A stretch of 64,000 nt of DNA from Paraburkholderia ginsengiterrae. GTDB lineage: Bacteria > Pseudomonadota > Gammaproteobacteria > Burkholderiales > Burkholderiaceae. The notes beneath the pieces were generated by a model. That model worked only from the letters and a program-made list of their open reading frames with translations. It was not told the origin of the DNA and made no database searches. The position numbers and the translations under genes were made by a program. Shown here one piece after another: positions 4,964-34,828 of this stretch. The stretch is from assembly GCF_001645125.1 (NCBI RefSeq), contig NZ_LXKA01000331.1:1-64000 (forward strand), given 5' to 3'. Positions within the stretch are counted from its first letter, which is position 1; every line of letters begins with the position of its first letter.

Positions 4964-6370
4964 TCAAACGCCCACCGACGGGTAGCAGAACGAATCTGTA
5001 GAGCAGTCTCCGCCTTCGAGCCGGATCTGGTGCGCCCGGTATCCATCGGGAAAATCCACCCAATAATCGTCGGCCAGAGCGAGGCCGCCGCCCGAATCGG
5101 CCCGCGCCATGACCTGTGCCGCGGGCACGCCGTCCGGGTAGAACTGATTGTCCCAAGTGGAATAGAGCGAGTTGGTCCAATAAACGCGCTTGCCGTCGCG
5201 GCTGATCTCGACCATCTGCGGACCACCCGCGAAAGTTTTACCGTTGGCATGCGGTGTGCGCCGCGCGATCCCGCCAATATGTACCGATCCGGTGAGCTTC
5301 GGCTTGCGGGGTTCCGTCACGTCGTACTGGCGCATCTCGCCCGTGCCCCAGCAGGCGACATAGAGGAATTTGTCGTCGATGGATAAATCGATATCCGTAA
5401 CGAGCGGCGGCACCGCGCCGAAGCCTTGCAGCAATGGCGGCAGCAATTCCGCCGCAGCAGGCTCGGGCGGGATGGTCGCCGTCTTCTCGATGTGAAACTG
5501 TCCACCCTCGCGCCACCAGGTCCAGATCGACCCTTCCAGATTGGTCGTGTCGATCACCACGCCGATAAAGCCGTACTCGCGGCTAGGATCGTGAGCGGGC
5601 CGCACTTCGAGCGCCATCTGATGATTTGCGCCAAGATCGAGGGTCTGCACATTGCGCCTGCCGCGCAGATCCCAGAAGTGGATACGGTGTCCGTATTTGT
5701 TCGACAGCAGGTCTTCGGCAACGATGCCGTTTTCGAACTGCGGCGGCAAAGCCCACTCGCTCGACACCATATAGTCGCGCGGCAGATTCCACCAGAAGTC
5801 GTAGTGTTTCTCCTGCGGCCCGCGTTCGATTTCCCAGCGCCCAAGCACCTCGAATGTTTCGCAATCCATGATAAAAATACCCGGCGGCCCGTCGGTGCCG
5901 TCTTTCCCGCCGCCGCCGAGCGTGCTTACGTAAATGCCTTCGGGACCGCAATGGACCGTATGCGGACGCGAGTAGCCCGTCTTGCGGAAAATCTCTTCAG
6001 GTTCGATGATTTTGTGAATCCGCGCCTGGGTCGGATGCGGCTGGGTATCCACGATATAAATGCGGGACGAGCGCATGCCCGGAATAATCAGGTAGCGCCG
6101 CTCGAGGAACGCGTGGCCGGTTAATGGCGAGAGCGCCGAGGAACAGGCATTCCATCCGAAATGATGGAACTCGTCCCCCTTGTAAGGCACCGGCACCGTG
6201 TGAACGACCCGGCCGTATGTCGGCGAGCCGGGCTTCACATCAATGACAGCGAGTGCGTCGGGCTGCGAGAAATCAGGGCTGAGAAGCACTGTGTAAGCGT
6301 ACTCTTCCGCCGGCGCATCCATCGCCAGTTTCGGCGAGGCGTGAAACGTAGGATCCGGGCGCATTCCCAT
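4964..6370 (-). CDS. Selenium-binding protein SBP56 / methanethiol oxidase
   Basis: The 468-residue protein is a close match in length and motifs to the SBP56 family, whose bacterial (MtoX) and human (SELENBP1) members oxidise methanethiol to formaldehyde, hydrogen sulfide and hydrogen peroxide. Recognisable signatures are KGDEFHHFGWNACSS, RPHTVHCGPEG, HYDFWWNLPRDYM and the C-terminal GGPQMVEISRDGKRVYWTNS and LEGGDCSTD. Histidines in these motifs are the expected copper ligands. I prefer the ATG at 6370, with AAGGAG 9 bases upstream, over the longer TTG frame. No signal peptide is evident, whereas characterised MtoX is periplasmic. It is followed by a co-translated membrane protein. Confidence 0.88.
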   Translation of the reverse strand: MGMRPDPTFHASPKLAMDAPAEEYAYTVLLSPDFSQPDALAVIDVKPGSPTYGRVVHTVPVPYKGDEFHHFGWNACSSALSPLTGHAFLERRYLIIPGMRSSRIYIVDTQPHPTQARIHKIIEPEEIFRKTGYSRPHTVHCGPEGIYVSTLGGGGKDGTDGPPGIFIMDCETFEVLGRWEIERGPQEKHYDFWWNLPRDYMVSSEWALPPQFENGIVAEDLLSNKYGHRIHFWDLRGRRNVQTLDLGANHQMALEVRPAHDPSREYGFIGVVIDTTNLEGSIWTWWREGGQFHIEKTATIPPEPAAAELLPPLLQGFGAVPPLVTDIDLSIDDKFLYVACWGTGEMRQYDVTEPRKPKLTGSVHIGGIARRTPHANGKTFAGGPQMVEISRDGKRVYWTNSLYSTWDNQFYPDGVPAAQVMARADSGGGLALADDYWVDFPDGYRAHQIRLEGGDCSTDSFCYPSVGV

Positions 6371-21163: not shown

Positions 21164-23293
21164 TTAGTTCAAAACGTAACTTATCTGAGCATTGTAGATA
21201 TCGGAGGTAGCCCCCGTCGCTGCGTACCAGGTTCCTGCCTTCGGATTAGAGATAGTGCACGTCGCAGGTAGGTTGCCCGACATACCCGATTGGCAAACCA
21301 CATTTAACACGCTCGGGGAATCTGCTCTGAGGTACAACCAGGCGGAGTCGGTGGGTCGTCCCGGCTTTAGCGTAAACGTCAGGCTTTTTGTACCCGTAGG
21401 AACGGTTACTGAGTAATATTCCATGCCACCGTTGACATCATCCAGCCTTGCCGGATTTCCGCTGCCTCTATAGTCAAGTTCCGTAATCGGCGGAGGTGCG
21501 ACATTAAAGGCACGTTTCAGCGTGCTCATGGCACCGTTCGAATCGATGACTTTCAAGGTCAGCGTATAGGTGCCGGGATATTCAAAGCTGAAAACTGGAT
21601 TCCCCGACTGCAACTGTCCGAAGTTCGCGGTGGTGCCCCAGTTCCAGACCCATTCGGTGATGATCGCCCCGCGAGATGTCGATCGATCGAAGCACTGCAC
21701 TTGCATCAGATTCCTGTTTTCCTGACACCAAAAATCCGCGGCCATCGGGATCGTTCCAGAGTAGGCGCTAATGAGAGCCGCGCCCGCGTCCAGAATACCC
21801 GGTCCCAGCGGCTGATCGGGTTGGCCACTTGGAAAGGGTTGCGTGCTCTTCTGAAGCAGATTGCGCATCTCTGCAGTGGTCAGTGACCTAGCCGCGATGG
21901 CCTGAACAAGTGCCGCAACGCCAGAAACCATCGGTGCGGCCATCGAGGTGCCATCCATGTACGCATAGCCCTCCGTGCCGGGCGTCCTGACCCCGTTGTT
22001 ATACGTGGACCAGATGCTTGACCCGGGGGCAGCAATATCGACTGTCGTCCCGAAGTTGGAATTCACCCATTTCGAACCGTTTGCGTTTGTCGCGCCTACA
22101 TTGATTACGTTGAAGCAGTTGGCAGGGGAGAAGTTAGCTGCGTCATTGGCATTGTTGCCTGCCGCTGTGATGACAATCGCACCTTGGCTGACTGCAGAAT
22201 TAATTGCACTCTGTAGTATCGCGTCACATGCACCTGCACCGCCCAAGCTTACGTTGATGATCTTCGCAGGGTTGGCATTCGCAGGGGCGCCTGGATCGTA
22301 CCCTCCTGCCGCCCATACGATACCATCGGCAATGTCAGAAGTTAGGCCCAAACCACACGCGTTCAAGACCCTCACGGGGACCATCTTCGCGCCCGGAGCG
22401 ATCCCGGCAATGCCGCTGCCATTGTTTGCTAGCGCGCCCATGATCCCCGCGACGTGCGTACCGTGCCATACGGCGGAGGAGCACCACGTCTCCGTCGTGA
22501 TACCCGGATCGCTACCATTGCCGCCCCGGTTCGGAGAGACAAAATTATATCCAGCCAACATATTGGCATTCAGGTCACTGTGACTGGTCACTCCAGTATC
22601 CACCACCGCCATTACTACGCCATATCCAAAGGCAAGGTTCCAAGCAGTCTCAGCACGTATACCGTAAGTTCTGTAGGGCGAGGCTAAATTCGATGCCAAA
22701 CCCCACTGCTTGCTATATTCCGGATCATTCGGGGTGAATTGTGCCGACATGACCCGGTCCGGTTCAACATATTCAACGTTGGGGTCTTTCGCAATGGCGT
22801 CCATAAACGATCGCGCCTGCTTGGCGGTCAGCTTGTACTCTGTCGTAACAATGTCTGCCCCACCACCCATGCGGCACAAATGGCGAGCCCGAGGTAGTCG
22901 GCTCTCCAGGCGGTCGAGTTTTGCCTGCACGGCAGTGGAAGAGCGCCCCTCGCTGGAGTTCGACTTGTACTTTACGATAAAGCGATCGTTGGGGGCTTCC
23001 GCTTCCTGATCGCTCGCATTTGCGTGCGCCACTGACAGTGACGAGACGCCGGCCGAACTAGCGGCACCGGCGGCTACAACTTCCGCCTTGTCGTTCGCTC
23101 CCGGCGTTACGTCCGAAGTATTGGCGCTCCCGTTGCTTCCACCGCACGCGGCCAACACCACCGCCAGTGTCACGCCTGCGATACCTCTGCCAACCAAACG
23201 TGTGGAGATTTCTGACCAGGTATCTACCGTTTTTATGATCGCGTGTTGAAAACCGAATAGTGCGCTTTTCGGTCCTTCATCTTTCATCGTCAT
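21164..23293 (-). CDS. S8 subtilisin-like protease, lipoprotein-type signal, PKD and PPC domains
   Basis: The 709-residue preproprotein has a long N-terminus ending in lipobox VLAAC (Cys50) and an inhibitor-I9-like propeptide (about 103-185, FIVKYKSNSS to VEYVEPDRV). The subtilase domain follows, with Asp232 (VVDTGVTSHSDL), His277 (WHGTHVAGI), oxyanion Asn380 (TAAGNN) and Ser450 (DGTSMAAPMVSG). Next are a PKD-like domain (about 515-605, YPGTYTLTLKVIDSNG) and a pre-peptidase C-terminal (PPC) domain. All catalytic residues are present, so it should be an active extracellular or surface serine protease. PPC domains are often removed on maturation. GC bias is lower than in its surroundings. Confidence 0.92.
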   Translation of the reverse strand: MTMKDEGPKSALFGFQHAIIKTVDTWSEISTRLVGRGIAGVTLAVVLAACGGSNGSANTSDVTPGANDKAEVVAAGAASSAGVSSLSVAHANASDQEAEAPNDRFIVKYKSNSSEGRSSTAVQAKLDRLESRLPRARHLCRMGGGADIVTTEYKLTAKQARSFMDAIAKDPNVEYVEPDRVMSAQFTPNDPEYSKQWGLASNLASPYRTYGIRAETAWNLAFGYGVVMAVVDTGVTSHSDLNANMLAGYNFVSPNRGGNGSDPGITTETWCSSAVWHGTHVAGIMGALANNGSGIAGIAPGAKMVPVRVLNACGLGLTSDIADGIVWAAGGYDPGAPANANPAKIINVSLGGAGACDAILQSAINSAVSQGAIVITAAGNNANDAANFSPANCFNVINVGATNANGSKWVNSNFGTTVDIAAPGSSIWSTYNNGVRTPGTEGYAYMDGTSMAAPMVSGVAALVQAIAARSLTTAEMRNLLQKSTQPFPSGQPDQPLGPGILDAGAALISAYSGTIPMAADFWCQENRNLMQVQCFDRSTSRGAIITEWVWNWGTTANFGQLQSGNPVFSFEYPGTYTLTLKVIDSNGAMSTLKRAFNVAPPPITELDYRGSGNPARLDDVNGGMEYYSVTVPTGTKSLTFTLKPGRPTDSAWLYLRADSPSVLNVVCQSGMSGNLPATCTISNPKAGTWYAATGATSDIYNAQISYVLN

Positions 23294-24092
23294 ATCGTCT
23301 CTGATTTAGTTTGATTGTTCTCTGTTACGAACGAAGCCGTGCCAATACGCTGCAACGATTCGCAATGAACAGCGTAATCACACGGCAACGCTGACGATAG
23401 TAGACGCGTCAGCTTTAGTTGAAAGACGATTTACCCAGGCTGTAGGGCGTTAGGTATGCGTCATTGATTGGTTACAGAAATGAGCGCGGGAAAATTCCGA
23501 CAGCCCTGCCTATCAGGCGTTACGACGCTACGCTACGGGATGGGACTTATATATGCTGCGTGCGTGGCTGAGCTACTTTTCAGAGTAGTCCTAGCGGGAT
23601 TGCATTCAGGTTTTGTGGGGCAGTTCACAGCGAGGACTTTTTTTTCTACTGCATATCGTCGTTCAATTGAACGTTGTATCGGCTCAATAACATCGGTTGC
23701 AGGGACAGACCATCACCGCGACACCCCGCAGCAATGCACCGCTGCGCGTGTCCCCCGCTCGACATCGTCGCTGCATCTTTGTCTGATATTTCCGTTTGCA
23801 CTGGTCTATAACTCTATGAGCAACGCGATCTTCGTGCCGTTGCGGACTCACAAAGTCACGACGCGCAGACTTCCGTGCGCCTCTTCCGCACCTGTCTGCC
23901 AGCGCTGATCCGACAGATCGGCAGCTAGCTGTGTAGCAGCCTCTTCAAAAGCCCGGACCCGTCGCCCCAGTTTCGCGGCGGTTCACCGGTGACATTGCTC
24001 CGGTTCCCCGAACGACGACCGATATCGCCGCTCGCTTCCCGTCTATCGATGATGAGGAGCGCCGCGCTGTTCGGGCCAGGTGACGTGTGACC
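23294..24092. other. Long intergenic stretch upstream of the protease
   Basis: About 800 bases hold no supported gene. One open frame on the plus strand (23468-23908) lacks a ribosome binding site, domain and codon bias. The part next to 23293 must carry the protease promoter. No repeat, tRNA or recognisable mobile element was seen. Confidence 0.45.
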
Positions 24093-24126
24093 GCAAATTC
24101 CCCAGGACGGTCGCCCGGGAATTTGC
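24093..24126 (+). other. Hairpin in the leader of the small secreted-protein gene
   Basis: GCAAATTCCC (24093-24102) and GGGAATTTGC (24117-24126) form a perfect 10-base-pair stem around a 14-base loop. It ends 20 bases before the ATG at 24147 and has no T-run, so it is more likely an mRNA leader structure or protein-binding site than a terminator. Confidence 0.5.
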
Positions 24127-24146
24127 TCATCGATCAAGGTGCCTAA

Positions 24147-24401
24147 ATGAAAGTACTAAAGATAGTATCGGCAAGTGCACTCTGCCTGTTGACGTCGGCC
24201 GGTACCGCATTTGCCCAGGATGCCCAGCCCAACCAAATGAACCAACAGGCGGCGCAGCAGAGCGCAATGCCAGGCGGCGACCAAATGCGTGATACGTCGA
24301 TGGGCGGCGTGCCCGGGCAGAAAACGCAAACGGGCACCCGAATACTTTACGGGGCGCCTTGTACTGGAGGATCGTTCTGCGATATTTACCACGGCAACTA
24401 A
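24147..24401 (+). CDS. Small secreted protein, Gln/Met-rich
   Basis: The 84-residue product has a good Sec signal peptide (MKVLKIVSASALCLLTSAGTAFA, cut before QDAQ), giving a mature periplasmic protein of about 61 residues rich in Gln, Met and Gly. The end has two cysteines (APCTGGSFCDIYHGN) that could form a disulfide. AAGGTG precedes the ATG. No family is recognised. Its last 43 bases overlap the start of the TPR lipoprotein frame, suggesting a two-gene unit. Confidence 0.65.
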   Translation: MKVLKIVSASALCLLTSAGTAFAQDAQPNQMNQQAAQQSAMPGGDQMRDTSMGGVPGQKTQTGTRILYGAPCTGGSFCDIYHGN

Positions 24402-26143
24402 CCAGGCCACGTAGTCTCCTCTCCGCTTTGGCGCTCGCCATTCTATCGAGTGGATGCTTTGCAGCGAGCACGCCGGATTCGTGCTCGCCTGCGCTCTCCG
24501 AAGTCGATGTCATAAGCGGCTTCAAGATCCGGGCGGACTGCGGGTTCCCCATCCAGACCCTGACCCACCTCACTACCGGGCTGAACCGCGTGGCCAGGGA
24601 GGTTGGACTCTCCGCTGCCCAGAGGGTCTCGCTGGCAAGAGCCACCAATGTGATGTCAACCGCTGTCGTTGCGCAATCGCGTCGCGCGAGCGCCAGCGCT
24701 GATGTCGCGTTCGGTCACATCGAACCACTCCTCGAGAACTTGGCGCAGGAAATCAAGGCACGGCCCGACACCGACCCGGTAGCTGAAGCCCGGAAATGGA
24801 ACGCGCGCTACGGCAATCTGTTGCGACGATCGACGATTGCCCGGAGTTCCGACCCTCTCGAATCGCAGATCGCCGCGGCGCTCGATCGCTTCGATCTAGA
24901 CGCGGCATCGCGGCTTCTAACAACACTGCTTGCCGGAAAACAGGACGCCACACAGGCGTTCGCCGAGCACTGCTACGACGCCGCAGTGATCGAGCTTCTG
25001 CGCTTCAGCCCGGCTCGCGCATTGCCCTGCCTGGAAAAGGCCTACGCGCTGCAACCGGACGATCCCGACATCGCGTCCGACTTGGCCGACACCCTGCAGG
25101 CACAATCCGAACTCGAGCGTGCACAAGCGGTTGACGAGGCGCTATTGCGGCGCTACCGCACGCTTGCGCAGGAGAAGCCTGCAACATATCAACCCCTTGT
25201 CGCGCGAACGCTCGACCAATTGGGCAGCCTCTACATCGGGCTGCAACGGCCAACGGAGGCAGAGGCGGCCTACCTGCACGCGCTGGAGATCGACTGGGCA
25301 CTCGCGCGAGAAAACCCCGCGGCCTACGGGCCTCACGTGGCGGAAGCCTTAGACCACCTCGGCGCTCTGTATCGCGATACACAACGCCTCAAAGATGCCA
25401 CGGATGCCTACCGCGAAGCCTTGGACATCGATCGTGCCCTGGCTCAGCGGGACAGCGCAGCCTACACGCCTGATGTGGCAACCACGCTGGACGACCTCGG
25501 CATCCTTTACAGCGCAACACAACGCACAGGCGATGCCGAACAGGTCTATCGTAAGGCGCTGGAGATCCAGCGTGCTCTCGTACGCGACAATCCCGCCCGC
25601 TGGCGTCCGACACTTGCACAGACGCTCAACAATCTTGGGAACCTCTATAGCGCGACGCAGCGGTACCCGGACGCGGAACACGTTTACCGCGAAGCGCTCA
25701 CCATCCGCCGACAACTCGCCCACGAGAGCCCCGCACTCTACGAGCCCGATATGGCACGCACGCTCGGCAACCTCGGCGTGCTCTATCGCGCCACGCAACG
25801 GCCCGGCGAAGCGCAGCGGGCTGACCAGCAAGCGCTGCGGATCTATCGTCAGCTTGCGCGGACGAATCCCGCCGCGTGGCAAGCCGACGAAGCGAGGACG
25901 TTGAACAATCTGGGGGTTCTGTTCAGTCGCACACGGCGGCCAGGCGAGGCGGAGGTTGCCTATCGTGAGGCGCTGGGCCTCTACCGCTCGCTGTCGCGCG
26001 AGAATCCCAACGCGTATCGTCAGGACGAGGCGAGGACACTCGGCAATCTGGGAGAGCTTCTCAGTCAGACCCAGCGGCCACGCGAGGCGATGGAGGCCAA
26101 ACGCGAAGCGGCCCGGCTTCTTGGAGCAACGGATACGCCATAG
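24359..26143 (+). CDS. TPR-repeat lipoprotein (kinesin-light-chain-type repeats)
   Basis: The protein of up to 594 residues carries a lipoprotein signal with box SSGC (Cys33 in the longest frame). An alpha-helical region follows, then about seven long TPR units of roughly 50 residues from about 250 to the end, each with a core like LDHLGALYRDTQRLKDA. Such repeats make protein-protein scaffolds. No ATG lies before the signal sequence. The longest frame begins at TTG 24359, and a CTG in frame a few codons later is preceded by GGAGG, so the true start is non-standard. It overlaps the small secreted-protein gene. Confidence 0.75.
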   Translation: MYWRIVLRYLPRQLTRPRSLLSALALAILSSGCFAASTPDSCSPALSEVDVISGFKIRADCGFPIQTLTHLTTGLNRVAREVGLSAAQRVSLARATNVMSTAVVAQSRRASASADVAFGHIEPLLENLAQEIKARPDTDPVAEARKWNARYGNLLRRSTIARSSDPLESQIAAALDRFDLDAASRLLTTLLAGKQDATQAFAEHCYDAAVIELLRFSPARALPCLEKAYALQPDDPDIASDLADTLQAQSELERAQAVDEALLRRYRTLAQEKPATYQPLVARTLDQLGSLYIGLQRPTEAEAAYLHALEIDWALARENPAAYGPHVAEALDHLGALYRDTQRLKDATDAYREALDIDRALAQRDSAAYTPDVATTLDDLGILYSATQRTGDAEQVYRKALEIQRALVRDNPARWRPTLAQTLNNLGNLYSATQRYPDAEHVYREALTIRRQLAHESPALYEPDMARTLGNLGVLYRATQRPGEAQRADQQALRIYRQLARTNPAAWQADEARTLNNLGVLFSRTRRPGEAEVAYREALGLYRSLSRENPNAYRQDEARTLGNLGELLSQTQRPREAMEAKREAARLLGATDTP

Positions 26144-26222
26144 CAACGCACGGGTGACATCCGGCTCGCTCTTGAACGGCGTTAAAAATCGAATTCAGTC
26201 CAGCAGGACAATCAGGGCCACA

Positions 26223-26729
26223 CTAGCCATGTTCGACTGGGGGCGTTGTCTCGTCGACGCCCGACGTTCCAGCGACCGCGGGTTGCGCCTCGGTCTCCGG
26301 CCCCATGGTCACCAGCACGCTGCAACTGACGCGGTCCAGCAACAAGCCATCGTTCTTGCCGCTCCACCAGCGCGCCAGCCGGCTGGTGCGACGGTGCCCA
26401 ACAACTACCAGATCGACTTTCAAGTCGTTCGCGAAGAACGAAATCTGATCCAGAGGGTCACCGACGGCGAAATGCCCGGTCGCCCGGATTCCGCGCGCAG
26501 CGAGCTTTTGCAAACCTTCTTCGAGCACGCTTTTGGCCGAGTCGTTAATGAATTCGACCGGAACCGCCGAGATAATGTCCGCCCCTTGAACCCAGGCGGA
26601 ATTACTCAGGACGGCGAGCACGTGCACTTCCGCTTCAAGCTCCTGGGCGAGACACGCGCCGTCTTTCAACGCGTGACGCCCTTCGAGCGTTCCGTCGTAA
26701 CAGAGAAGAATGCGGTTAAAAGTCGGCAT
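26223..26729 (-). CDS. Universal stress protein (UspA family) 1
   Basis: The 168-residue single-domain Usp protein begins MPTFNRILLCYDGTLEG, the usual first strand with Asp. The standard nucleotide-binding motif G-x2-G-x9-G-S/T is not intact: after VVVGHRRTSRLARWW the sequence is SGKNDGLLLDRVSCSVLV. The second Usp of this locus has the same RWW-S/T-G pattern, so both belong to a divergent subtype. ATG 26729 has GGGAGA upstream. A palindromic regulatory site lies 116 bases upstream (26845-26867). Confidence 0.88.
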   Translation of the reverse strand: MPTFNRILLCYDGTLEGRHALKDGACLAQELEAEVHVLAVLSNSAWVQGADIISAVPVEFINDSAKSVLEEGLQKLAARGIRATGHFAVGDPLDQISFFANDLKVDLVVVGHRRTSRLARWWSGKNDGLLLDRVSCSVLVTMGPETEAQPAVAGTSGVDETTPPVEHG

Positions 26730-26844
26730 GTTCTGTCTCCCTGCGCTTTCGCGGCAACGCAACAATCCGCCGCGCAAAATAACGAAACGCCGAGATCAGG
26801 GACAACCGCAGCGGGGCTGCCGAGCCGGCATGTTACAGATCCAT

Positions 26845-26867
26845 TGTATATCACCTCATGATATACA
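26845..26867. promoter_or_regulatory. Regulon palindrome A (Usp 1)
   Basis: TGTATATCA-CCTCA-TGATATACA has perfect 9-base arms around a 5-base spacer. It lies upstream of Usp 1 and is one of five related sites between 26845 and 29758, the last of them in front of a MarR gene. Confidence 0.8.
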
Positions 26868-27068
26868 TGCCGGTGGCATCCGAGCTGCGTTCGAAACTTC
26901 GACAATCAGGCCTGCAGCGATTTTCCTGGCTCTTTGGCGTGTGCCGCCACTTCCATCTTGTAGAAGCGTGCACTGACACCGGCTGCTCTGTTCAGGGCTG
27001 ATCGCCATCAGCGAAAACGCGGCCTCTGCCCCGCCACGCTCACTGGACTACGGAGTTCCCATCGCCCA

Positions 27069-27091
27069 TATAGATCACAGCGTGATATATA
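27069..27091. promoter_or_regulatory. Regulon palindrome B (Usp 2)
   Basis: TATAGATCA-CAGCG-TGATATATA has arms matching at 8 of 9 positions around a 5-base spacer. It lies 55 bases upstream of the Usp 2 start. Confidence 0.78.
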
Positions 27092-27146
27092 CTGGACAAT
27101 GTGCGATCGCGGCAATCGCCTGCCGCGCGCAATCGCGGAGGAACCG

Positions 27147-27596
27147 ATGCTAGCCCCGTTTTCACGCATTCTATTGTGCTATGACGGCACACCCGAAGGA
27201 CAAAGAGCGCTACGCTGCGGCGCGATGCTTGCGCGGCAGCTGCAAGCTGAAACACACCTTCTGTCGATCATGGACACGACGTGCTGGTCGAACGGATTTG
27301 GCGTGTTGGCTTCGGCGAGTTTCGAAATGGATGAACGGGACGCGAGGAAAACGCTCGAGGAAGGCATTGTCAGGTTGCACGCGTGGGGCGTCTCTGCGCA
27401 GGGTCATTTCGAGGTAGGTAGCGCGGTCGAGCACATCGCACGATTAGCTCACGCCATACATGCCGATCTAATCGTTCTCGGCCACCAGCCGCAAGGCGTT
27501 TTTGCGCGCTGGTGGACCGGCGAGAACCATGCTGGCCTGCTCGACCGGGTGCCGTGCCGTGTTCTATTCGAGGTCGCGGATTCACTCGTTGATTAG
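27147..27596 (+). CDS. Universal stress protein (UspA family) 2
   Basis: The 149-residue protein starts MLAPFSRILLCYDGTPEG from ATG 27147, with GGAGG just upstream. It is paralogous to Usp 1 (shared RILLCYDGT start, D-L-x-V-L/V-G-H strand and ARWWTGEN segment) and likewise lacks the canonical ATP-binding glycine motif. It is divergent from Usp 1 across a 417-base region with palindromes A and B. A 52-residue membrane protein follows 25 bases after its stop, probably in the same transcript. Confidence 0.88.
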   Translation: MLAPFSRILLCYDGTPEGQRALRCGAMLARQLQAETHLLSIMDTTCWSNGFGVLASASFEMDERDARKTLEEGIVRLHAWGVSAQGHFEVGSAVEHIARLAHAIHADLIVLGHQPQGVFARWWTGENHAGLLDRVPCRVLFEVADSLVD

Positions 27597-27621
27597 TACG
27601 TGAGCGTGCAGGAGACCGATC

Positions 27622-27780
27622 ATGATGGATTTTCTGGTGCAATTCGCAGTCGCCGGCGTGGTGCTTGGTCTGGTGATTCTTCTGGTCGTTACCCAGGACC
27701 GCCGTGCCACCCTGCGGGAACGGATTCTTCATGCCAGCACGCGCCGCCATTGGTGGAATCGACCGCGCAATGGGCATTAA
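27622..27780 (+). CDS. Small membrane protein, 52 residues
   Basis: A short frame starting ATG ATG (27622), with AGGAGA 8 bases upstream, encodes one strongly hydrophobic helix (FLVQFAVAGVVLGLVILLVV). A basic, tryptophan-containing cytoplasmic tail (RRHWWNRPRNGH) follows. This is the layout of a single-span inner-membrane protein with N-out/C-in topology by the positive-inside rule. It lies 25 bases after Usp 2 on the same strand. Third-codon bias matches the genome. No family is recognised. Confidence 0.65.
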   Translation: MMDFLVQFAVAGVVLGLVILLVVTQDRRATLRERILHASTRRHWWNRPRNGH

Positions 27781-27859
27781 TCGCGGCAACGCGGCCCGCC
27801 CACCACGCCATGGCCATGGCTTGCGCAGCGGTGCGGCAATTCAAGCGAAACGAAGATAC

Positions 27860-28177
27860 CTACAGCCCCCAGATAATGTCCGCATCCGTCTTGTGTGCCT
27901 CGCGCATCATGTCCAGAAACGGCCACGCACGCTGCGAGAGCCGGTTGCGCGAGTCACGTTGATTGCCGGCTGAGCGGTGCAATGGTTCGAGCGTTGCTTC
28001 CGCCGTGGCGTCGTCCGAAATCGCGGCTTCGAGCCGGCCAATCGCACCCGGTAGTTCATCGTGCATGATGACACCGCGGTCATCGAGGCGCTTGCCTATC
28101 AAACCCAGCAAGTATTGAGCAAGGTCCCGGAGCATCACGACATCCGGCGATGCAGGTGATTGAAAAGTGATTAGCAT
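27860..28177 (-). CDS. DUF1840 domain protein
   Basis: The 105-residue protein starts MLITFQSPASPDVVMLRDLA, typical of the DUF1840 family found mainly in betaproteobacteria. A very good ribosome binding site, AAGGAGG, lies 5 bases upstream of ATG 28177, so the longer in-frame start is rejected. The C-terminus is His/Arg-rich and ends in DADIIWGL. Function is unknown. Palindrome C lies 120 bases upstream of its start, tying it to the Usp/MarR set. Confidence 0.88.
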   Translation of the reverse strand: MLITFQSPASPDVVMLRDLAQYLLGLIGKRLDDRGVIMHDELPGAIGRLEAAISDDATAEATLEPLHRSAGNQRDSRNRLSQRAWPFLDMMREAHKTDADIIWGL

Positions 28178-28296
28178 GACGGCCTCCTTTTGAAGTGCAT
28201 GCGGCAACCGCTGCGTCGATCGGATTCCCGCGAGGATTGCCCGGCGATATGAAGTACGCCTCGCCATTCTGCCGCTATTCGCCTTCGATCGCCGCC

Positions 28297-28317
28297 TTAT
28301 ATCACAACATGATAAAA
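28297..28317. promoter_or_regulatory. Regulon palindrome C (DUF1840)
   Basis: TTATATCA-CAACA-TGATAAAA has arms agreeing at 7 of 8 positions around a 5-base spacer. It lies between the divergent DUF1840 and HPP-CBS genes and is the nearer site to DUF1840. Confidence 0.72.
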
Positions 28318-28426
28318 CTGAATGGCGAACACGTCCATCCGCCGCAGCCTCGCACCTCCAGCCCCGCCGATCAACGGAGATTGGCCCGCCCTGCCGTACC
28401 GCGCTGCAACACGCCGGCGCTGCGTT

Positions 28427-28447
28427 TTATATCATATTGAAATATAA
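28427..28447. promoter_or_regulatory. Regulon palindrome D (HPP-CBS)
   Basis: TTATATCA-TATTG-AAATATAA has the left arm intact and 6 of 8 right-arm bases. A perfect -10 hexamer TATAAT (28443-28448) overlaps its right edge. A bound regulator would block that promoter. The first ATG of the following frame is only 2 bases away. Confidence 0.6.
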
Positions 28448-28449
28448 TC

Positions 28450-29700
28450 ATGGCCAGAATGTATTCGCGTTGCCTGGGTTTCCCCGGTAATGTCTGCCCC
28501 GGCATAATCGACTACGTCCCCCTTTATATCTTGTCCCGTTCTCCTGCCCTGCGCTGGCTTTCCAGCTTTATTCCGGCCCCCGTTACCGTCAAGTGGCAGG
28601 AGCGCGCGCGTTCGTGCCTCGGCGCGCTAATCGGCATCGCCTTTACGGGCGGCTCCATGTACCTGCTGCTGGGGCCGGCGGCCAGCATCCCGCTGCTCGT
28701 CGCACCAATGGGCGCCTCCGCCGTGTTGTTGTTCGCCGTGCCCGCGAGCCCGCTGGCGCAGCCGTGGTCCATCATCGGCGGCAATCTCGTCTCCGCGACC
28801 ATTGGCGTGACCTGCGCCAGCATGATTGCCGATCCGACCCTCGCGGCCGCACTGGCAGTCGCACTGTCGATCTGCGGCATGTTCGCGCTGCGCTGCGTGC
28901 ACCCGCCTTCAGGCGCGGTCGCATTGACGGCGGTGCTGGGCGGCCCCGTCATTCATGCGCTGGGGTACCGGTTCGTGCTCGAGCCGATTGCACTCCAGTC
29001 TGCCGCACTGCTTGCCGCGGCGCTGGCCTATCACGCCGCCACCGGCCACCGCTACCCGCACGCGGCCGGGCGGCCGGACCGCGCCGCGAGCGGCAACGCG
29101 GCGCAAGACGCGGCACGCGCCGGTTTTACTCGCGCGGACATCGAAGCCGTTCTGAAGCGCCGCAGCGAAATGCTTGACATCGACGTGGACGACCTCGAGT
29201 CGCTCCTGCGCGAAACGCAGCTTCAGGCCTTCTCGCGCAGCTTCAACGAACTGACCTGCGGCGACATCATGTCCCGCCACGTCGTGTCGGTGTCGGCGGC
29301 CACGCGCGCCGCCGTCGCCTGGGGCCTGCTAAGACGCAACAACGTGAAGGCACTGCCTGTTACCGATACGGACCAGAACCTGATCGGCATCGTGACGCGC
29401 GCCGACCTGATCGACAAAAGGCTGCTCGCCAAATTCTCGCCGTTCGTTGCCTATTTCGACGGGTGGCTACGTGGCGATGCGCTCCGTACTCCGAACGTCG
29501 GCAGTGTGATGAGTACCGAAGTGGTCACCATCAAGGCATCGGCGCCGATTACCGACCTCGTGCCGATGTTCGCGAACTACGGCCATCACCATATCCCGGT
29601 GGTTGATGCCGCAGGGCATGCGGTCGGCATGATCACGCAGGTCGACCTGATCTCCGGCCTCTATCGGCAAACCATGGAGCGGGCCCGGCAGACCGCATAA
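28450..29700 (+). CDS. HPP-family membrane protein with two CBS domains
   Basis: The protein of up to 416 residues has an HPP transmembrane domain (about 40-190) with four to five helices and the hallmark FALRCVHPPSGAVALTAVLGG. A linker follows, then a CBS pair (about 270-405; FNELTCGDIMSRHVVSVS and VGSVMSTEVVTIKAS). HPP proteins have been linked to nitrite transport in plastids and cyanobacteria, and CBS pairs usually sense adenine nucleotides. The start is uncertain. ATG 28450 has no ribosome binding site and abuts a -10 box, so ATG 28459 or a later codon may be used. Confidence 0.85.
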   Translation: MARMYSRCLGFPGNVCPGIIDYVPLYILSRSPALRWLSSFIPAPVTVKWQERARSCLGALIGIAFTGGSMYLLLGPAASIPLLVAPMGASAVLLFAVPASPLAQPWSIIGGNLVSATIGVTCASMIADPTLAAALAVALSICGMFALRCVHPPSGAVALTAVLGGPVIHALGYRFVLEPIALQSAALLAAALAYHAATGHRYPHAAGRPDRAASGNAAQDAARAGFTRADIEAVLKRRSEMLDIDVDDLESLLRETQLQAFSRSFNELTCGDIMSRHVVSVSAATRAAVAWGLLRRNNVKALPVTDTDQNLIGIVTRADLIDKRLLAKFSPFVAYFDGWLRGDALRTPNVGSVMSTEVVTIKASAPITDLVPMFANYGHHHIPVVDAAGHAVGMITQVDLISGLYRQTMERARQTA

Positions 29701-29733
29701 CGGCAACGCGGCCGCATTAGCGGCAGTCCGTCC

Positions 29734-29758
29734 AAATACATCATTATGTGATATATTT
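29734..29758. promoter_or_regulatory. Regulon palindrome E (MarR autoregulatory site)
   Basis: AAATACATCA-TTATG-TGATATATTT has arms matching at 9 of 10 positions around a 5-base spacer. It ends 28 bases before the MarR ATG, the expected place for an autoregulatory operator. Confidence 0.8.
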
Positions 29759-29786
29759 CCGGTTTATTTGCCTTGGTGGGTACCAG

Positions 29787-30203
29787 ATGAAAGTGCGGGT
29801 TCGCAGTCTGAAGAAAACCGATTTTGAGCAGCTATCGGAGTTTCGCTACCAGATGCGGCGCTTCGAACGTTTCTCGGAGCAGGCCGCCCAGAGCGAGGGC
29901 ATTACGCCGCTTCAATATCTGCTTCTGCTGCATATCAAGGGATACCCGGATCGCGACTGGGCGACCGTCGGCGAGTTGGCTGAGCGGCTTCAGGCCCAGC
30001 ATCATGGCGTCGTCGCGCTGGTATCGCGTTGCGAAGCCCTCAATCTGGTGCGTCGTCAGGTGAGCGAAACAGATCGCCGTCAGGTTGAAGTTCACCTTGA
30101 GAAAGCGGGCGAGCGGGTACTCGAGCGGCTGGCGGAATTGCACCGTGCCGAATTGAAATCGCTCGAGGGCGCTTTCCAGATTCCACAGATCGACTTTGAC
30201 TAA
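29787..30203 (+). CDS. MarR-family regulator
   Basis: This 138-residue protein has the MarR winged-helix layout: an N-terminal dimerisation helix (FRYQMRRFERFSEQAA), recognition region (TVGELAERLQAQHHGVVALVSRC), wing with SETDRRQVEVHL, and C-terminal helix. ATG 29787 with GGTGGG upstream was chosen because a longer frame would run through palindrome E. Its stop is 2 bases before the ClC gene, so the two are co-translated. It is the best candidate to bind the five TATATCA-N5-TGATATA sites of this region. No conserved cysteine pair suggests a thiol switch. Confidence 0.88.
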   Translation: MKVRVRSLKKTDFEQLSEFRYQMRRFERFSEQAAQSEGITPLQYLLLLHIKGYPDRDWATVGELAERLQAQHHGVVALVSRCEALNLVRRQVSETDRRQVEVHLEKAGERVLERLAELHRAELKSLEGAFQIPQIDFD

Positions 30204-30205
30204 TC

Positions 30206-32008
30206 ATGAGCCTTGATTCCCACAAGCGTGACTTTTCTGCTAACTCGCGGCTGCCAGGCATATTTGCCCTTGCTGCGTGTATCGGCATGGTCAGCACGCT
30301 GGCCGCCTACGTCCTGCTGAATCTGATTCATCTGTTCACCAATCTGTTCTTCTTCGGCACGCTGTCGTTCGCCGAACGTTCGCCCGCCACCAACACACTC
30401 GGCTTCTGGGTCGTGGGCGTACCGGTTGTCGGCGGTCTGATCGTCGGCCTGATGGCGCGTTACGGCTCCGAAAAGATTCGCGGCCACGGCATTCCCGAAG
30501 CGATCGAAGCCATCCTGTTCGGCAAGAGCAAGATGTCGCCGAAGGTCGCCGTGCTCAAGCCGCTGTCGTCGGGCATCGTGATCGGGAGCGGCGGCCCGTT
30601 CGGCGCGGAAGGGCCGATCATCATGACCGGTGGCGCGCTCGGGTCGCTAATCGCGCAATGCGTGAAGCTCACTTCGGCGGAGCGCAAAACGCTGCTGGTG
30701 GCCGGCGCCGCCGCTGGCATGACCGCGGTGTTCGGCACGCCGGTGGCGGCCGTGCTGCTCGCGGTCGAACTGCTGCTGTTCGAATGGCGGCCGCGCAGCT
30801 TCCTGCCGGTTGCAATGGCCTGCGCGGTCGCCGGTTTCGCGCGCGCCATATTCTTCGGAACAGGTCCGCTCTTCCCGCTCGAAACCGCCGCACCGGACGG
30901 CTGGTCGCTGATTTCCTGCGTGATTGCCGGTCTGTTGTCCGGCGCGCTGGCCTCGGGATTGTCGGCGGCCCTGTACAAGGTCGAAGATCTGTTCGGCAAA
31001 CTGCCGATCCACTGGATGTGGTGGCCCGCGCTCGGGGGCCTCGTGGTCGGCATTGGCGGGTGGCTCGAACCGCGTGCGCTCGGTGTGGGTTACGACGTGA
31101 TCGGCGACCTGCTGCATCAGCATATCGCGCTGCAGATTGCGCTCCTGCTGCTGGCCGTGAAGGCCATCATGTGGGTCGTTGCACTGGGGTCCGGCACCTC
31201 CGGCGGCGTGCTCGCCCCGTTGCTGATGCTCGGCGCGGGACTCGGCACCGTGCTCTCGCACTGGCTGCCGGGCAACCAGCCGGCTTTGTGGCCGCTCGTT
31301 TGCATGGCCGCCACGCTTGGTGCAACGCTGGGCGCGCCGCTCACGGCAATCGTGTTCGCGTTCGGTCTGACCCACGACGGCAACGCGCTGCTGCCGCTTC
31401 TGACGGCCACGTTGATCGCTCACGGGTTGTCGACGGTGATGATGCGCCGCTCGATCATGACGGAGAAAATCGCACGCCGCGGCTATCACATCTATCGCGA
31501 GTATGGCGTCGACCCGCTGGAGCGTCACTACGTCGACGAAGTGATGACTGCCTCGGTCGAATCACTCGGCGCCGCCATGACGGTCAGTGAGACGCTGGCA
31601 AAGTATTTTGGCGCCGCACAGGTGCGCCGGGCCTATCCTGTTGTGCGCGGCGATGCGGTCATCGGCGTGGCCGACCGGCAGCTTCTCGAAGATTTCTACC
31701 GCGAAAAGCCCGAGCTCAATGGCGGCCTGAGTCTCGCCGACGCATTCAAACAGCGGTCGCCGGCCTATGCGCTTCCGAACGAAACCTGCCGGCTCGTCGC
31801 AACGAGGCTGGTCGTTCATCATCTCGAGCGTTTGCCCGTGGTTGCCGACCCGAAGACGATGCGTCTCGTTGGCATCGTGTCACGTAGCGACCTTCTCAAG
31901 CCGTCGCTCGCCCACTTCGAAGAAGAACATAAACGTGAGCGTTTCCGGCGTCTGACGCCCGTGCTCGGCAAGCGTCGGCGCTTTGCTCCGGTTCGCAAGT
32001 CAAGCTAA
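30206..32008 (+). CDS. ClC-family chloride channel/antiporter with CBS domains
   Basis: The 600-residue protein has a ClC transmembrane domain (about 18-430) and a C-terminal CBS pair (about 450-570). Family motifs are GHGIP (93-97), where most ClC proteins have GSGIP; GAEGP (133-137), with the gating glutamate Glu135 kept; and GTSGGVLAPLL for the third ion-binding segment. The gating glutamate fits a gated channel or proton-coupled exchanger. His for Ser at the central anion site occurs in some bacterial CBS-type ClCs and may alter selectivity. It starts 2 bases after the MarR stop and shares its promoter. Confidence 0.92.
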   Translation: MSLDSHKRDFSANSRLPGIFALAACIGMVSTLAAYVLLNLIHLFTNLFFFGTLSFAERSPATNTLGFWVVGVPVVGGLIVGLMARYGSEKIRGHGIPEAIEAILFGKSKMSPKVAVLKPLSSGIVIGSGGPFGAEGPIIMTGGALGSLIAQCVKLTSAERKTLLVAGAAAGMTAVFGTPVAAVLLAVELLLFEWRPRSFLPVAMACAVAGFARAIFFGTGPLFPLETAAPDGWSLISCVIAGLLSGALASGLSAALYKVEDLFGKLPIHWMWWPALGGLVVGIGGWLEPRALGVGYDVIGDLLHQHIALQIALLLLAVKAIMWVVALGSGTSGGVLAPLLMLGAGLGTVLSHWLPGNQPALWPLVCMAATLGATLGAPLTAIVFAFGLTHDGNALLPLLTATLIAHGLSTVMMRRSIMTEKIARRGYHIYREYGVDPLERHYVDEVMTASVESLGAAMTVSETLAKYFGAAQVRRAYPVVRGDAVIGVADRQLLEDFYREKPELNGGLSLADAFKQRSPAYALPNETCRLVATRLVVHHLERLPVVADPKTMRLVGIVSRSDLLKPSLAHFEEEHKRERFRRLTPVLGKRRRFAPVRKSS

Positions 32009-32035
32009 ACGGCACCGGTGCCCCGCCGCATGCCG

Positions 32036-32419
32036 TCAGGAACGCCGCCCGTCCCGCGAACGCAGCGCTCGCAGAATGTAGTCGCGTAACACGACGGCGT
32101 TGTTGTGTTCCGGGTCGTGAGCGGCAAACAGCAATGTGACCGGCCCCCGTGAAGCGGCGTCAAGCAATGGTTTCCATGCGGCCGGATTGGCATCCAGTTC
32201 GGCTTCATAGCGATGCTGGAATTCGTCCCATCGCTGCGGATCGTGGCCGAACCAGGTGCGCAATGCGCTGCTCGGCGCAACGTCTTTCAGCCATCCATCC
32301 ACGCGCAACGCATCTTTCTTCACGCCGCGCGGCCACAGCCGGTCGACGAGAAAGCGCGCTCCTCCCTCATCGGCCGGAAGTCCGTAAACGCGGCATATGT
32401 CGATGGCAGGTTTCTTCAT
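32036..32419 (-). CDS. DUF488 family protein (YeaO-like)
   Basis: The 127-residue protein starts MKKPAIDICRVYGLP and contains ARFLVDRLWPRGVKKD and the later VTLLFAAHDPEHNNAVVLRDYI, the standard signature of the YeaO branch of DUF488. The biochemical function is not known. The length is normal for the family. It converges on the ClC gene with a 27-base gap. A 15-base palindrome (CTGATTC-A-GAATCAG, 32460-32474) lies about 40 bases upstream of its start and could be regulatory. Confidence 0.9.
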   Translation of the reverse strand: MKKPAIDICRVYGLPADEGGARFLVDRLWPRGVKKDALRVDGWLKDVAPSSALRTWFGHDPQRWDEFQHRYEAELDANPAAWKPLLDAASRGPVTLLFAAHDPEHNNAVVLRDYILRALRSRDGRRS

Positions 32420-32684
32420 TCTGTTTCCGCAATGACAGGCGCACGCCGGGCAGGCGCGCCTGATTCAGAATCAGCCGGTGCGCGCGCAGCGTCAATGCGA
32501 ACAACTACGGATGTATGATGTGGCGTCCAGGACTGGCCGTCAGGCGACCGTTCCACCTGACCTGGTCCGGGATACGTGCAGCCCTCATCGTTCGCTGACG
32601 CACGTACGCTGCCCATGACGAAGTGAGAGACTGAACGCAAGCGTGCGTTCGTCTGCCGACGCCCGCAGTTCAGACACGTTAGCC

Positions 32685-33128
32685 ATGGCCTCCCGTTCTG
32701 TTAGAGCACTCGCCGCACTACTTGCCTCAGGCGCAGGTTTCTGCCCGCTTGCGTCGCACGCGTACGCGCTCGACGCGCAATTCGACTGCCAGGCGCATCC
32801 TCACGCGTTTATCGAGAATCTGATCGATAACAACTACATCGAGTCCGCCCCAATGCGGGTCGACAAGAACTCCGTCAACGCGTTCCGTCCCGTGCACGGC
32901 AGCGACATGACGGCATTCGGCTTTCGCGTGTACGCCGTGCTCGGCTACGAGCCGGATGACGGCATGTTCAGGAAAGGCCACGGCCAGGCGCTCGCGAGCC
33001 CGCTATACGGCGCGGTGCTGTCCGCGCCGAGCGACTCGGTGGAATTGCGCGTGCGGGCGGCCGGCAGCACCGCCACGGTGCACGCGGTCATCCCGATGCT
33101 GCTGACCGCGGTGATCTGCTCGCGTTGA
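32685..33128 (+). CDS. Secreted protein of unknown function
   Basis: From ATG 32685 the 147-residue product has a signal peptide (ASRSVRALAALLASGAGFC, cleavage probably after SHAYA). The mature part has one early Cys (FDCQAHPHAFIENLIDNNYI) and another near the end (VICSR), which could form a disulfide. A longer in-frame start at 32643 lacks a typical signal n-region. No family is recognised with certainty. Nothing in the context suggests a role. Confidence 0.65.
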   Translation: MASRSVRALAALLASGAGFCPLASHAYALDAQFDCQAHPHAFIENLIDNNYIESAPMRVDKNSVNAFRPVHGSDMTAFGFRVYAVLGYEPDDGMFRKGHGQALASPLYGAVLSAPSDSVELRVRAAGSTATVHAVIPMLLTAVICSR

Positions 33129-33160
33129 CGGACGGCGAACCGGCGCCGCGGTGCTATGCT

Positions 33161-33210
33161 TTTCGCTCGTCGTCGCTCGTCTTCGCTCGTCTTCGCTCGT
33201 CTTCGTTCAC
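33161..33210. repeat. 10-base tandem repeat, five units
   Basis: Units of the form CTTCGCTCGT repeat in register at 33161, 33171, 33181, 33191 and 33201. The two at 33181 and 33191 are identical, and the others differ at one to four positions. The tract ends 23 bases before the next ATG, so slippage could alter the leader length of that gene. Confidence 0.8.
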
Positions 33211-33233
33211 TCACCGCCAAGGACCGCTCGCCT

Positions 33234-33620
33234 ATGCCCTCGTCTGTCCGCAACTCGCTCGTCTGGATTTTCGACGCATTCGAGCGCGATTCGACCTACA
33301 TCGCCAAGCGGATGTTCGGCGCGGACGCGGCCTATCTCGACGGACTCCTGTGCTTGGTGGCGAGCGCTCGCGACGAGCCGTGGAATGGTCTGCTGGTGTG
33401 CACGTCGGTAGAGCGTCACGCCGCGCTCATGGATGAATTGCCGGCGTTGCGGCCGCATCCGGTGCTTGGAAAATGGCTTTATATATCGCAGGAAGATCCG
33501 GCCTTTGAAACCGTCGCCGAACAATTGACGGCACTCGCGCTCGCACGCGATGAGCGGCTGGGTGTCGAACCCAAACCGCGCAAAAGCCGCAGCAAGAAGT
33601 CCGCACTGCCCAAGGCATAG
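33234..33620 (+). CDS. TfoX-N/YjbR-like small protein
   Basis: From ATG 33234 the 128-residue protein has a segment IAKRMFGADAAYLDGLLCLV resembling the TfoX N-terminal domain core (R-x-M-F-G-x-x-x-x-Y-x-D-G), followed by a strand-rich part and GKWLYISQ. The end is basic and probably disordered (KPRKSRSKKS). Family members include the competence regulator Sxy, but this short version lacks the C-terminal domain, and its role is unknown. The longer frame upstream would read through the tandem repeat as Arg/Ser-rich protein and is rejected. Confidence 0.65.
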   Translation: MPSSVRNSLVWIFDAFERDSTYIAKRMFGADAAYLDGLLCLVASARDEPWNGLLVCTSVERHAALMDELPALRPHPVLGKWLYISQEDPAFETVAEQLTALALARDERLGVEPKPRKSRSKKSALPKA

Positions 33621-33655
33621 CGCCTCACTGCCTCACGACTGAATGCCTGAATGCG

Positions 33656-34828
33656 TCAGGCCGCCGCGCCGACGCAGGTCCGCTTCATGTCCACCTGCTC
33701 CAGAACAGCCTGCACAACCCGCTCGACGCTCGGCCAGTTCTGCGCGTGCTGCCCCGGCACATACTGCTCGGGCGACACGCTGCGATACGGCGGCGCATAG
33801 CCCCAGATGGCATCGTGCCGTTCGGGCCTCGTCACGCTCCCGCCGAGCACGGCCACCGTGGGGCGATGAAACGCCGCCGCGACGTGCATCAGCATCGACG
33901 AGTTCGTCAGCACGACATGCGCCGCTTCGGTGAGGGCGAACACGACACGCATGGGCACCTCGCCCGCCAGCGAGCGGACCGGCACGCCCGGACCCGCCGC
34001 GGCGATCGCCTCCGCCGCGCGCGTCCGGTCCGCCGCGTTGCCGACAATCACGATATCGCACGCGTCGCCGGCTTTTTCCACTGCCTGGGCGATCTGGGCG
34101 AGCGCCGCGCCAGCCAGGCGTGCATCCCACGCCTTGGTCGGCACGCCGGCCCCGACACCGGCAATCAGGCGCACCGCGCCGCGTCCCGGCACAGCGCCCG
34201 CGCGCCAGATTCGCGCGGCGCGAGCCCGTTCTTCGGCGCTCAGGAACAATTGCGGACGCACGTCCGGCAGCGCTGTCGCGCCAAGCAGCTCCCCTTGCGC
34301 AAGCGCGGCGCGTCCGCATTGCCGGGCGGAGAAGTCGATGTGCGCCTGACATCCGCTCCAGCCGCCTCGATAACCGCGCACGCCGATGCGATAGCGCACG
34401 CCCGCGCGCATCATCAGCAACGCGCCCATGTAGCTGCCGAGCACGTCGATGCCGATATCAAAGCCGCCGCGCGCGCGCAATGCGGCAATCTGCGGGGACT
34501 GCCGCAAAAAACGCAGCACATTGCGATGCGAGCGATCCTCGACCAGCTTGTTGTTCCAAGGCGCGTCAATCTCGACGATTTCGTCGATGAACGGATTGTT
34601 CTCGAGTATCGGCACGCCCCAGCTGCCCACACCGGCGACAAGACGCGTCGCCGGAAAGCGCTTGCGCAGCGCCTCGAACAGTGGGGTCGTGGTGAGCAGC
34701 TCGCCGAAATCGTTCGGCCTCAGCACGAGAATCTCGCGGGGCGTCTCGCGGTGGGGATCGAACCGTGGACGGTAGAACCGGCCGATCACCCAGACCGGCG
34801 TTTCGATCAACAGGTCTTTCAGGCCCAT
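33656..34828 (-). CDS. Glycosyltransferase family 9 (heptosyltransferase-like)
   Basis: The 390-residue protein matches ADP-heptose:LPS heptosyltransferases in length and layout. The N-terminal Rossmann domain has REILVLRPNDFGELLTTTPL, and the C-terminal domain has VRLIAGVGAGVPTKAWDARL and the nucleotide-sugar motif EAAHVVLTNSSMLMHVAAAFHRPTVAVLGG. It would transfer a heptose or similar sugar to LPS core or another glycan at the inner membrane. ATG 34828 has GGAG 6 bases upstream. No other LPS gene lies nearby, so it is an orphan. Confidence 0.85.
   Translation of the reverse strand: MGLKDLLIETPVWVIGRFYRPRFDPHRETPREILVLRPNDFGELLTTTPLFEALRKRFPATRLVAGVGSWGVPILENNPFIDEIVEIDAPWNNKLVEDRSHRNVLRFLRQSPQIAALRARGGFDIGIDVLGSYMGALLMMRAGVRYRIGVRGYRGGWSGCQAHIDFSARQCGRAALAQGELLGATALPDVRPQLFLSAEERARAARIWRAGAVPGRGAVRLIAGVGAGVPTKAWDARLAGAALAQIAQAVEKAGDACDIVIVGNAADRTRAAEAIAAAGPGVPVRSLAGEVPMRVVFALTEAAHVVLTNSSMLMHVAAAFHRPTVAVLGGSVTRPERHDAIWGYAPPYRSVSPEQYVPGQHAQNWPSVERVVQAVLEQVDMKRTCVGAAA

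Follow-up and report, generated by a model that had tools for sequence, protein, structure and literature searches.

We identified five copies of a palindrome in a 64,000-nucleotide stretch of the Paraburkholderia ginsengiterrae genome (contig NZ_LXKA01000331.1, positions 1 to 64,000; hereafter the window), and consider it very likely that the MarR-family regulator encoded at 29787-30203 in the same stretch uses this palindrome, TATATCAY-N3-RTGATATA, as its operator. MarR would cover the -10 element of its target promoters and repress its own marR-clC operon, an HPP-CBS gene, two universal stress protein (Usp) genes, a DUF1840 gene and promoters on two other contigs, C370 and C384, until a signal releases it. 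Binding, repression and release by MarR are steps that we infer from the DNA sequence and its conservation.

The core 19-mer, TATATCA-N5-TGATATA, was found in the window at 26847-26865 (operator A, TATATCA-CCTCA-TGATATA, no mismatches), 27071-27089 (operator B, one mismatch), 28298-28316 (operator C, one mismatch), 28428-28446 (operator D, two mismatches) and 29737-29755 (operator E, one mismatch). The five palindromes reported in the initial annotation therefore exist, with core starts one to three bases above the starts given there. Shuffled windows contained on average 0.17 matches at ≤3 mismatches, the largest number being 1, and this result, the genome-wide controls and the shuffled dyads in related loci (see below) led us to reject a chance origin of the sites. 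Extra matches in the window, at 17987 and 37104, both have 3 mismatches. The claim that there are no further copies thus holds for the window, apart from these two, and fails for the genome, which contains six more at ≤2 mismatches. All five sites have at least one perfect half-site. TATATCA, described as common to all, is exact on the left in three of them (26847, 28298 and 28428) and degenerate in the other two, and TGATATA is exact on the right in three (26847, 27071 and 29737). The spacer, described as fixed, is 5 bases in four sites, the exception being operator D. This site can be read as TATATCA-TATTG-AAATATA, with a degenerate right half, or alternatively as a palindrome with a 3-base spacer and one mismatch. 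The 3-base-spacer variant has 40 matches in 80 named marR loci (described below), 37 of them in bins 1.2-1.6 kb before marR, which is the place of the HPP promoter, and because the form recurs there, it represents a conserved variant and no noise.

Each of five transcription units is preceded by one of these sites, as originally assigned, and the gene assignment was borne out by family profiles and, for a small membrane protein, by its translation. Operators A and C lie before the minus-strand genes for Usp1 and DUF1840, with their centres 127 and 130 bp from the respective ATG, and operator B lies before Usp2 and the small membrane protein, centred 67 bp from the Usp2 ATG. Operator D precedes HPP-CBS, and operator E is the putative autoregulatory site before MarR-ClC. 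Between the core of operator E and the MarR ATG there are 31 bases; the 28 bases reported earlier apply if flanking palindromic bases are counted. Within the divergent pairs Usp1/Usp2 and DUF1840/HPP each promoter has its own operator, which fits local occlusion. Riboswitches or other Rfam RNAs were not detected near these genes (0 matches at gathering score in 24000-34000).

The position of the palindrome relative to promoter elements points to the way in which it would work. We scored -10-like hexamers, defined as TATAAT with at most one change, at sites with ≤1 mismatch and a single orientation. Such a hexamer overlaps the gene-facing half in 171/211 oriented sites versus 38/211 for the other half (Fisher 1e-40, a value for related rather than independent sites). 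By gene, the overlap was found at 114/134 sites for MarR, 21/25 for HPP, 13/19 for Usp, 7/10 for DUF1840, 13/14 for the small membrane protein and 3/9 for ClC. When 72 autoregulatory sites were aligned, T occupied the second position past the gene-facing half in 97%, and A its counterpart on the other side in 46%, so that the gene-facing sequence reads TGATATAWT. This resembles the extended -10 consensus, TGnTATAAT. Operator D overlaps a TATAAT box at 28443-28448, in agreement with the initial annotation. A simple sigma-70 scan gave 1 promoter versus 1.1 expected and is neutral, hence the case for a -10 overlap is built on comparing the gene-facing half with the opposite half. Since the gene-facing half doubles as the -10 box, and the operator would thus take the place of part of the promoter, a MarR dimer bound to the palindrome would cover the -10 element and block RNA polymerase, and repression of this kind, including autoregulation of marR-clC, is likely. 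HPP-CBS, both Usp genes, DUF1840 and the promoters on C370 and C384 would be repressed in the same manner, and some signal would release MarR from the operator.

The link between the palindrome and MarR was assessed in related genomes, using 80 named loci, mostly from Paraburkholderia with some from Burkholderia, Caballeronia and Trinickia (from fewer than 80 genomes, as some give two), 59 loci of the family, and 30 loci from a search of the order. From the latter, 27 were newly fetched, and the other three were already known: two of them, L018 and L021, have a site, and L132, from Cupriavidus, has none. Open reading frames (ORFs) were called by a simple GC-codon script, so that the labels of flanking genes in fetched loci are approximate; at locus L229 (the same as L255), for example, MarR was shown by tblastn, with the strand opposite to the ORF call of the script. 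At ≤2 mismatches, a site upstream of marR was present in 72/80 named loci, with 27-42 bp between its end and the start codon, in 22/27 newly fetched loci, and in 39/59 family loci, or 39/49 without the 10 Cupriavidus loci. Within the named loci, the HPP site was present in 64 of 71. The motif thus stands upstream of orthologues in related genomes, and the first refuting condition named in the initial annotation, a lack of such enrichment, does not apply. At ≤1 mismatch the 80 named loci gave 108 matches, whereas the reversed pattern had none and 20 shuffled dyads had 0-1 apiece, and spacers of 2, 4, 6, 7 and 8 bases gave no match each. Of these 108 sites, 101 have a gene for MarR, HPP, Usp, DUF1840 or ClC no more than 350 bp downstream, in a set biased to the marR neighbourhood, since the counts cover 4 kb around marR and favour linked targets.

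Association with MarR also holds at the level of whole genomes. In 300 order genomes, from which both motif and MarR counts were taken and which, judging by the genome identifiers, were one shared draw, the exact motif, TATATCAYNNNRTGATATA, occurred in 19, all of them among the 62 with this MarR (E ≤ 1e-25), and in 0 of the 238 without it (Fisher 8e-15); the reversed-pattern control was 0 in every order genome listed. Among MarR-bearing Paraburkholderia, 36/39 have at least one site at ≤1 mismatch, and none is present in 11 of 13 family genomes of ≥3.5 Mb that were picked as MarR-less and have no match at E ≤ 1e-10. The laboratory strain Paraburkholderia xenovorans LB400 has six matches at ≤2 mismatches versus one for the control, and the two close to its marR agree in position with the marR and HPP promoters. 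When loci outside the family were collected by a DNA-only search (15 of 16 fetched), the gene directly behind the site was marR in 12, ClC in one, Yip1 in one and an unknown gene in one. Targets unlinked to marR carry sites of their own as well, among them a ClC gene in genome G473 located approximately 336 kb from its marR, HPP and ClC in Cupriavidus genome G190, which lie 7.4 kb apart (the ClC start being inferred inside a longer ORF call), and genes in islands on C370 and in Caballeronia sp. SBC1. In genome G095, marR has an in-frame TAG and there is no site at ≤1 mismatch, which fits MarR acting at the palindrome, as a single case from a genome that also has an intact 58% homologue.

Searching the 8.53 Mb assembly at ≤2 mismatches returned 11 sites. 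Besides those of the window, contig C370 (18.6 kb) has another five and contig C384 (8.7 kb) has one. With at least 11 sites over three contigs, the regulon is not compact, contrary to the initial claim. At ≤3 mismatches there were 51 matches versus 36 for the reversed pattern, and since the 3-mismatch matches are mostly background, weight was put only on the better ones. The C370 sites adjoin genes for an acetate transporter (AceTr_1), a cyclopropane-fatty-acid synthase, a second DUF1840 protein and a nitronate monooxygenase/Usp pair, and a HiPIP gene is close to the site on C384. Beside the second DUF1840 gene, at C370 (L016) 5706-5856, there is an HPP-type operator, TATATCACAATGAAATATA, at the place expected for HPP, followed by genes for DUF4142, a cupredoxin-like ORF and a sigma-factor-like ORF; once HPP had been lost, its promoter may have been put to a new use here. 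At the end of the same contig (16615-18597, minus strand), a large ORF resembles a nitrate-reductase-type molybdoenzyme when its translation is read by eye.

In other genera the same kinds of genes recur behind the site. Twelve Paraburkholderia genomes, picked by site counts so as to total 30 sites at ≤1 mismatch, gave 1 reversed-pattern match. In this set 26/30 sites, as we read them, precede MarR, HPP, ClC, Usp or small protein, DUF1840 or SdhB genes, one (G120:C4) fits HPP by spacing only, and three were not placed (G243:C377, G219:C61, which is behind and not before a marR, and G213:C56, by another gene). On pSBC1_3 of Caballeronia sp. SBC1, sites are scattered along 100 kb of DNA with genes for SdhB, cytochrome oxidases, two MarR, ClC, CysM, three DUF1840, HPP and HiPIP, and further acs, an acetate transporter, a cyclopropane-fatty-acid synthase, transketolase, a thiamine pyrophosphate enzyme and hmpA, some of these genes having no site directly in front. 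A flavohaemoglobin gene stands behind a site in Cupriavidus genome G226. Divergent from marR, other families often have a gene for a DsrC-like or a Yip1 protein. Two of the DsrC-like proteins (PF04358; L230 1128-1484 and L246 1027-1359) have one cysteine near the end, in QAC, and terminate in RPR[A/G]WSTG; a C-terminal cysteine is usual in DsrC, and these two proteins do not have it.

The regulator itself (138 aa, 29787-30203, plus strand) has a MarR winged helix-turn-helix domain (PF12802, E 3.7e-14, 53.1 bits versus a cut-off of 27). Other traits of the family can be read from the DNA, namely a palindromic operator in its own promoter, here at 29737-29755 and in 72/80 named loci, and an operator that overlaps promoter elements, as in the 171/211 oriented sites. 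All NCBIfam MarR equivalogs with any match to the protein (BilQ, HpaR, OhrR, LdtR, FabT and Saro_0803) remain below their cut-offs, with 19.6-32.5 bits versus 121.2-250, the best being Saro_0803 with 32.5 of 200 bits. Across the order, the single cysteine, C82, and R20, R24, Y44, H73 and H119 are kept in 49/49 aligned MarR sequences (two of them identical), H49 in 48/49 and H103 in 46/49; in a wider family alignment of 62 rows, 98% retain C82. By its position in the MarR fold we read C82 as lying in the recognition-helix region. The near-invariant C82, R20, R24, Y44, H73 and H119 are compatible with a homodimer that would be controlled by a ligand or by its cysteine; conservation of residues alone fits sensing, folding or DNA contact equally. 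Cysteine oxidation in MarR proteins is stated, and pH-dependent binding cited, in the part of PMC5487221 used here. As a first guess, and a tentative one, the signal could be of the redox type (thiol, nitrosative or sulfur species) and act at C82. An acid or organic-acid ligand, acting via the near-invariant His, Arg and Tyr residues, is our second guess and somewhat doubtful, and a signal of some other kind seems just as possible as the first.

A number of observations weigh against MarR being the protein that reads the palindrome everywhere, or against parts of the proposed mechanism. A genus group that we take as Cupriavidus, as 8/10 of its marR loci align to a stretch of C. metallidurans CH34, accounts for some of them. 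Its marR genes (64-67% identical) adjoin neither an operator nor ClC in 10/10 loci, and all nine Cupriavidus genomes examined for it have a site at HPP and/or ClC (G002 by translation). Cupriavidus genomes G226 and G297 have the operator at HPP/ClC and, with all candidates scored, no MarR match at E ≤ 1e-10. This pattern suggests that in Cupriavidus the site may be recognised by an additional MarR or by a different factor. Elsewhere, of 32 Caballeronia genomes whose MarR match is strong (E < 1e-60), 16 have no site at ≤1 mismatch, 8/80 named marR loci are without an autoregulatory site at ≤2 mismatches, and the overlap with the -10 hexamer is weak at ClC sites. The MarR of locus L146 lacks C82, yet has the operator and ClC behind it, which counts against C82 as a general sensor. 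Moreover, part of the 19/19 association reflects sites inside marR promoters, so that a second regulator of marR is formally possible. The initial proposal of an autoregulated MarR regulon, with the palindrome serving as operator for the neighbouring MarR, is thus strongly backed by comparative genomics, with the two Cupriavidus genomes and half of these Caballeronia as discordant cases.

If another transcription factor bound the palindrome, and marR were merely among its targets, then the sites kept without MarR in G226 and G297, and the Cupriavidus marR genes without a site, would be accounted for. Such a factor would need to disappear together with every one of its targets whenever MarR is absent, given that the exact motif occurs in 0/238 MarR-less order genomes, and G226 and G297 are the only two exceptions among the 13 large MarR-less family genomes; we therefore regard this explanation as improbable. 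A role of MarR as activator or dual regulator for some targets, besides the repression of others by blocking the -10 element, is unlikely, too. The 127-130 bp between site centre and start codon at Usp1 and DUF1840, and the 3/9 overlap at ClC sites, would suit such a role at sites more than 100 bp from the start codon, but when the oriented sites of Usp, DUF1840 and the small membrane protein are pooled, a -10 hexamer overlaps the gene-facing half in 33/43 and the opposite half in 2/43. Least probable is a low-oxygen regulon of the FNR/Anr type, as at the Burkholderia cenocepacia lxa locus, with the palindrome as a variant of the FNR-type box. The islands of the studied genome and of Caballeronia sp. 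SBC1 do share themes with lxa, which likewise has clusters of Usp, cytochrome and acetyl-metabolism genes (in the portions of PMC6127331 and PMC9733578 considered): they contain several Usp, cytochromes and genes for acetate/acetyl metabolism. A CRP/Anr-type regulator, the Anr-like BCAM0049, is proposed for B. cenocepacia in that portion of PMC6127331, and one FNR-like box with 2 mismatches is present between Usp1 and Usp2 (26998). At ≤1 mismatch, however, the FNR box was found neither near the window genes, nor near the C370 sites, nor on C384. The one B. cenocepacia record searched, 'plasmid unnamed1' of strain CMCC(B)23006 (3.2 Mb), shows no operator shared with lxa, as its only two sites at ≤2 mismatches are at MarR and, by spacing, at the HPP promoter; at ≤3 mismatches it has 14 matches versus 9 for the control, the location of lxa on this record not being established. 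With no FNR box at ≤1 mismatch, and only MarR and HPP sites on that record, the FNR/lxa explanation was rejected.

The mechanism that we propose for MarR is familiar. Autoregulated repressors of the MarR family, as described in the part of PMC5487221 used, share the PF12802 winged helix-turn-helix and a palindromic operator in their own and other promoters, at positions that fit interference with RNA polymerase, as deduced here from sequence. The protein falls below the cut-offs of all MarR-family equivalogs, and among the 7 distinct PDB sequences that match it at E ≤ 0.001 none is close; 2rdp (a putative MarR regulator) shares the domain over residues 19-131 (E 4.9e-07) and 1s3j (YusO) over residues 31-115 (E 3.6e-06), both remotely. 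To our knowledge, no known MarR regulon has the target set HPP-CBS, ClC-CBS, Usp and DUF1840, with DsrC-like or Yip1 genes beside marR elsewhere. Pseudomonas aeruginosa PA3458 is likewise a MarR protein with a multi-target stress regulon, but its motif, TTHGNASDSRAARDA, differs from our palindrome (PMC8070244, in the section consulted). The MarR content of PMC5343134, within the text covered, consists of HmgS and regulators of the homogentisate pathway only. This MarR, its operator and its gene set were not found among the top matches in the open-licence PMC literature, judged by title and start of abstract, and the orthologous group, the operator and the target set look undescribed.

The same pair of MarR and palindrome appears to exist in several Burkholderiales families. 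It is conceivable that a single operator code of an unrecognised Burkholderiales MarR switch is re-used for modules that differ between families: Burkholderiaceae and some neighbours would have HPP plus ClC under its control, and others a DsrC-like or Yip1 protein. In Paraburkholderia and Caballeronia this code might have captured accessory islands for acetate uptake and activation, cyclopropane fatty acid synthesis, HiPIP, cytochrome oxidases, flavohaemoglobin and Usp, and MarR might sense redox or acid via C82 or the conserved histidines. A single motif gives a handle on poorly understood genes (HPP, DUF1840, ClC with CBS, DsrC-like and Yip1) in an order that includes many environmental and opportunistic bacteria. 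It makes a common signal directly testable, and the signal that releases MarR would tell the purpose of HPP-CBS and ClC.

The genes behind the five operators were assigned as follows. Usp1 (26223-26729, minus strand) and Usp2 (27147-27596, plus strand) match PF00582 (E 3e-17 and 9.3e-16, respectively), and Usp2 is followed by a gene on the plus strand (27622-27780) for a protein of 52 aa, the N-terminal half of which is hydrophobic, a membrane protein as judged by eye. DUF1840 is encoded at 27860-28177 on the minus strand (PF08895, E 2.4e-27), and the HPP membrane protein with CBS domains at 28450-29700 on the plus strand (PF04982, E 5.6e-48; PF00571). The ATG at 28450 is one base past the -10 box, hence the real HPP-CBS start is probably downstream, with the TTG at 28531 as a candidate. 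The ClC-type chloride channel/transporter with CBS domains (PF00654, E 3.2e-79; PF00571) is located at 30206-32008, on the plus strand, directly behind marR. After ClC there is a DUF488-like ORF (32036-32419, minus strand, by eye), with no palindrome before it in the window; DUF488 genes are present on the Caballeronia sp. SBC1 island too. Just upstream of Usp1 lies a long ORF of repeated TPR-like units (24359-26143), and farther upstream a subtilisin-like protease ORF (21164-23293), both recognised by eye. Finally, a MarR homologue with 62% identity is encoded on the Klebsiella pneumoniae plasmid pRWS292.s1 (L186), a conjugative plasmid from a water isolate, where it is divergent from a flavin reductase gene.

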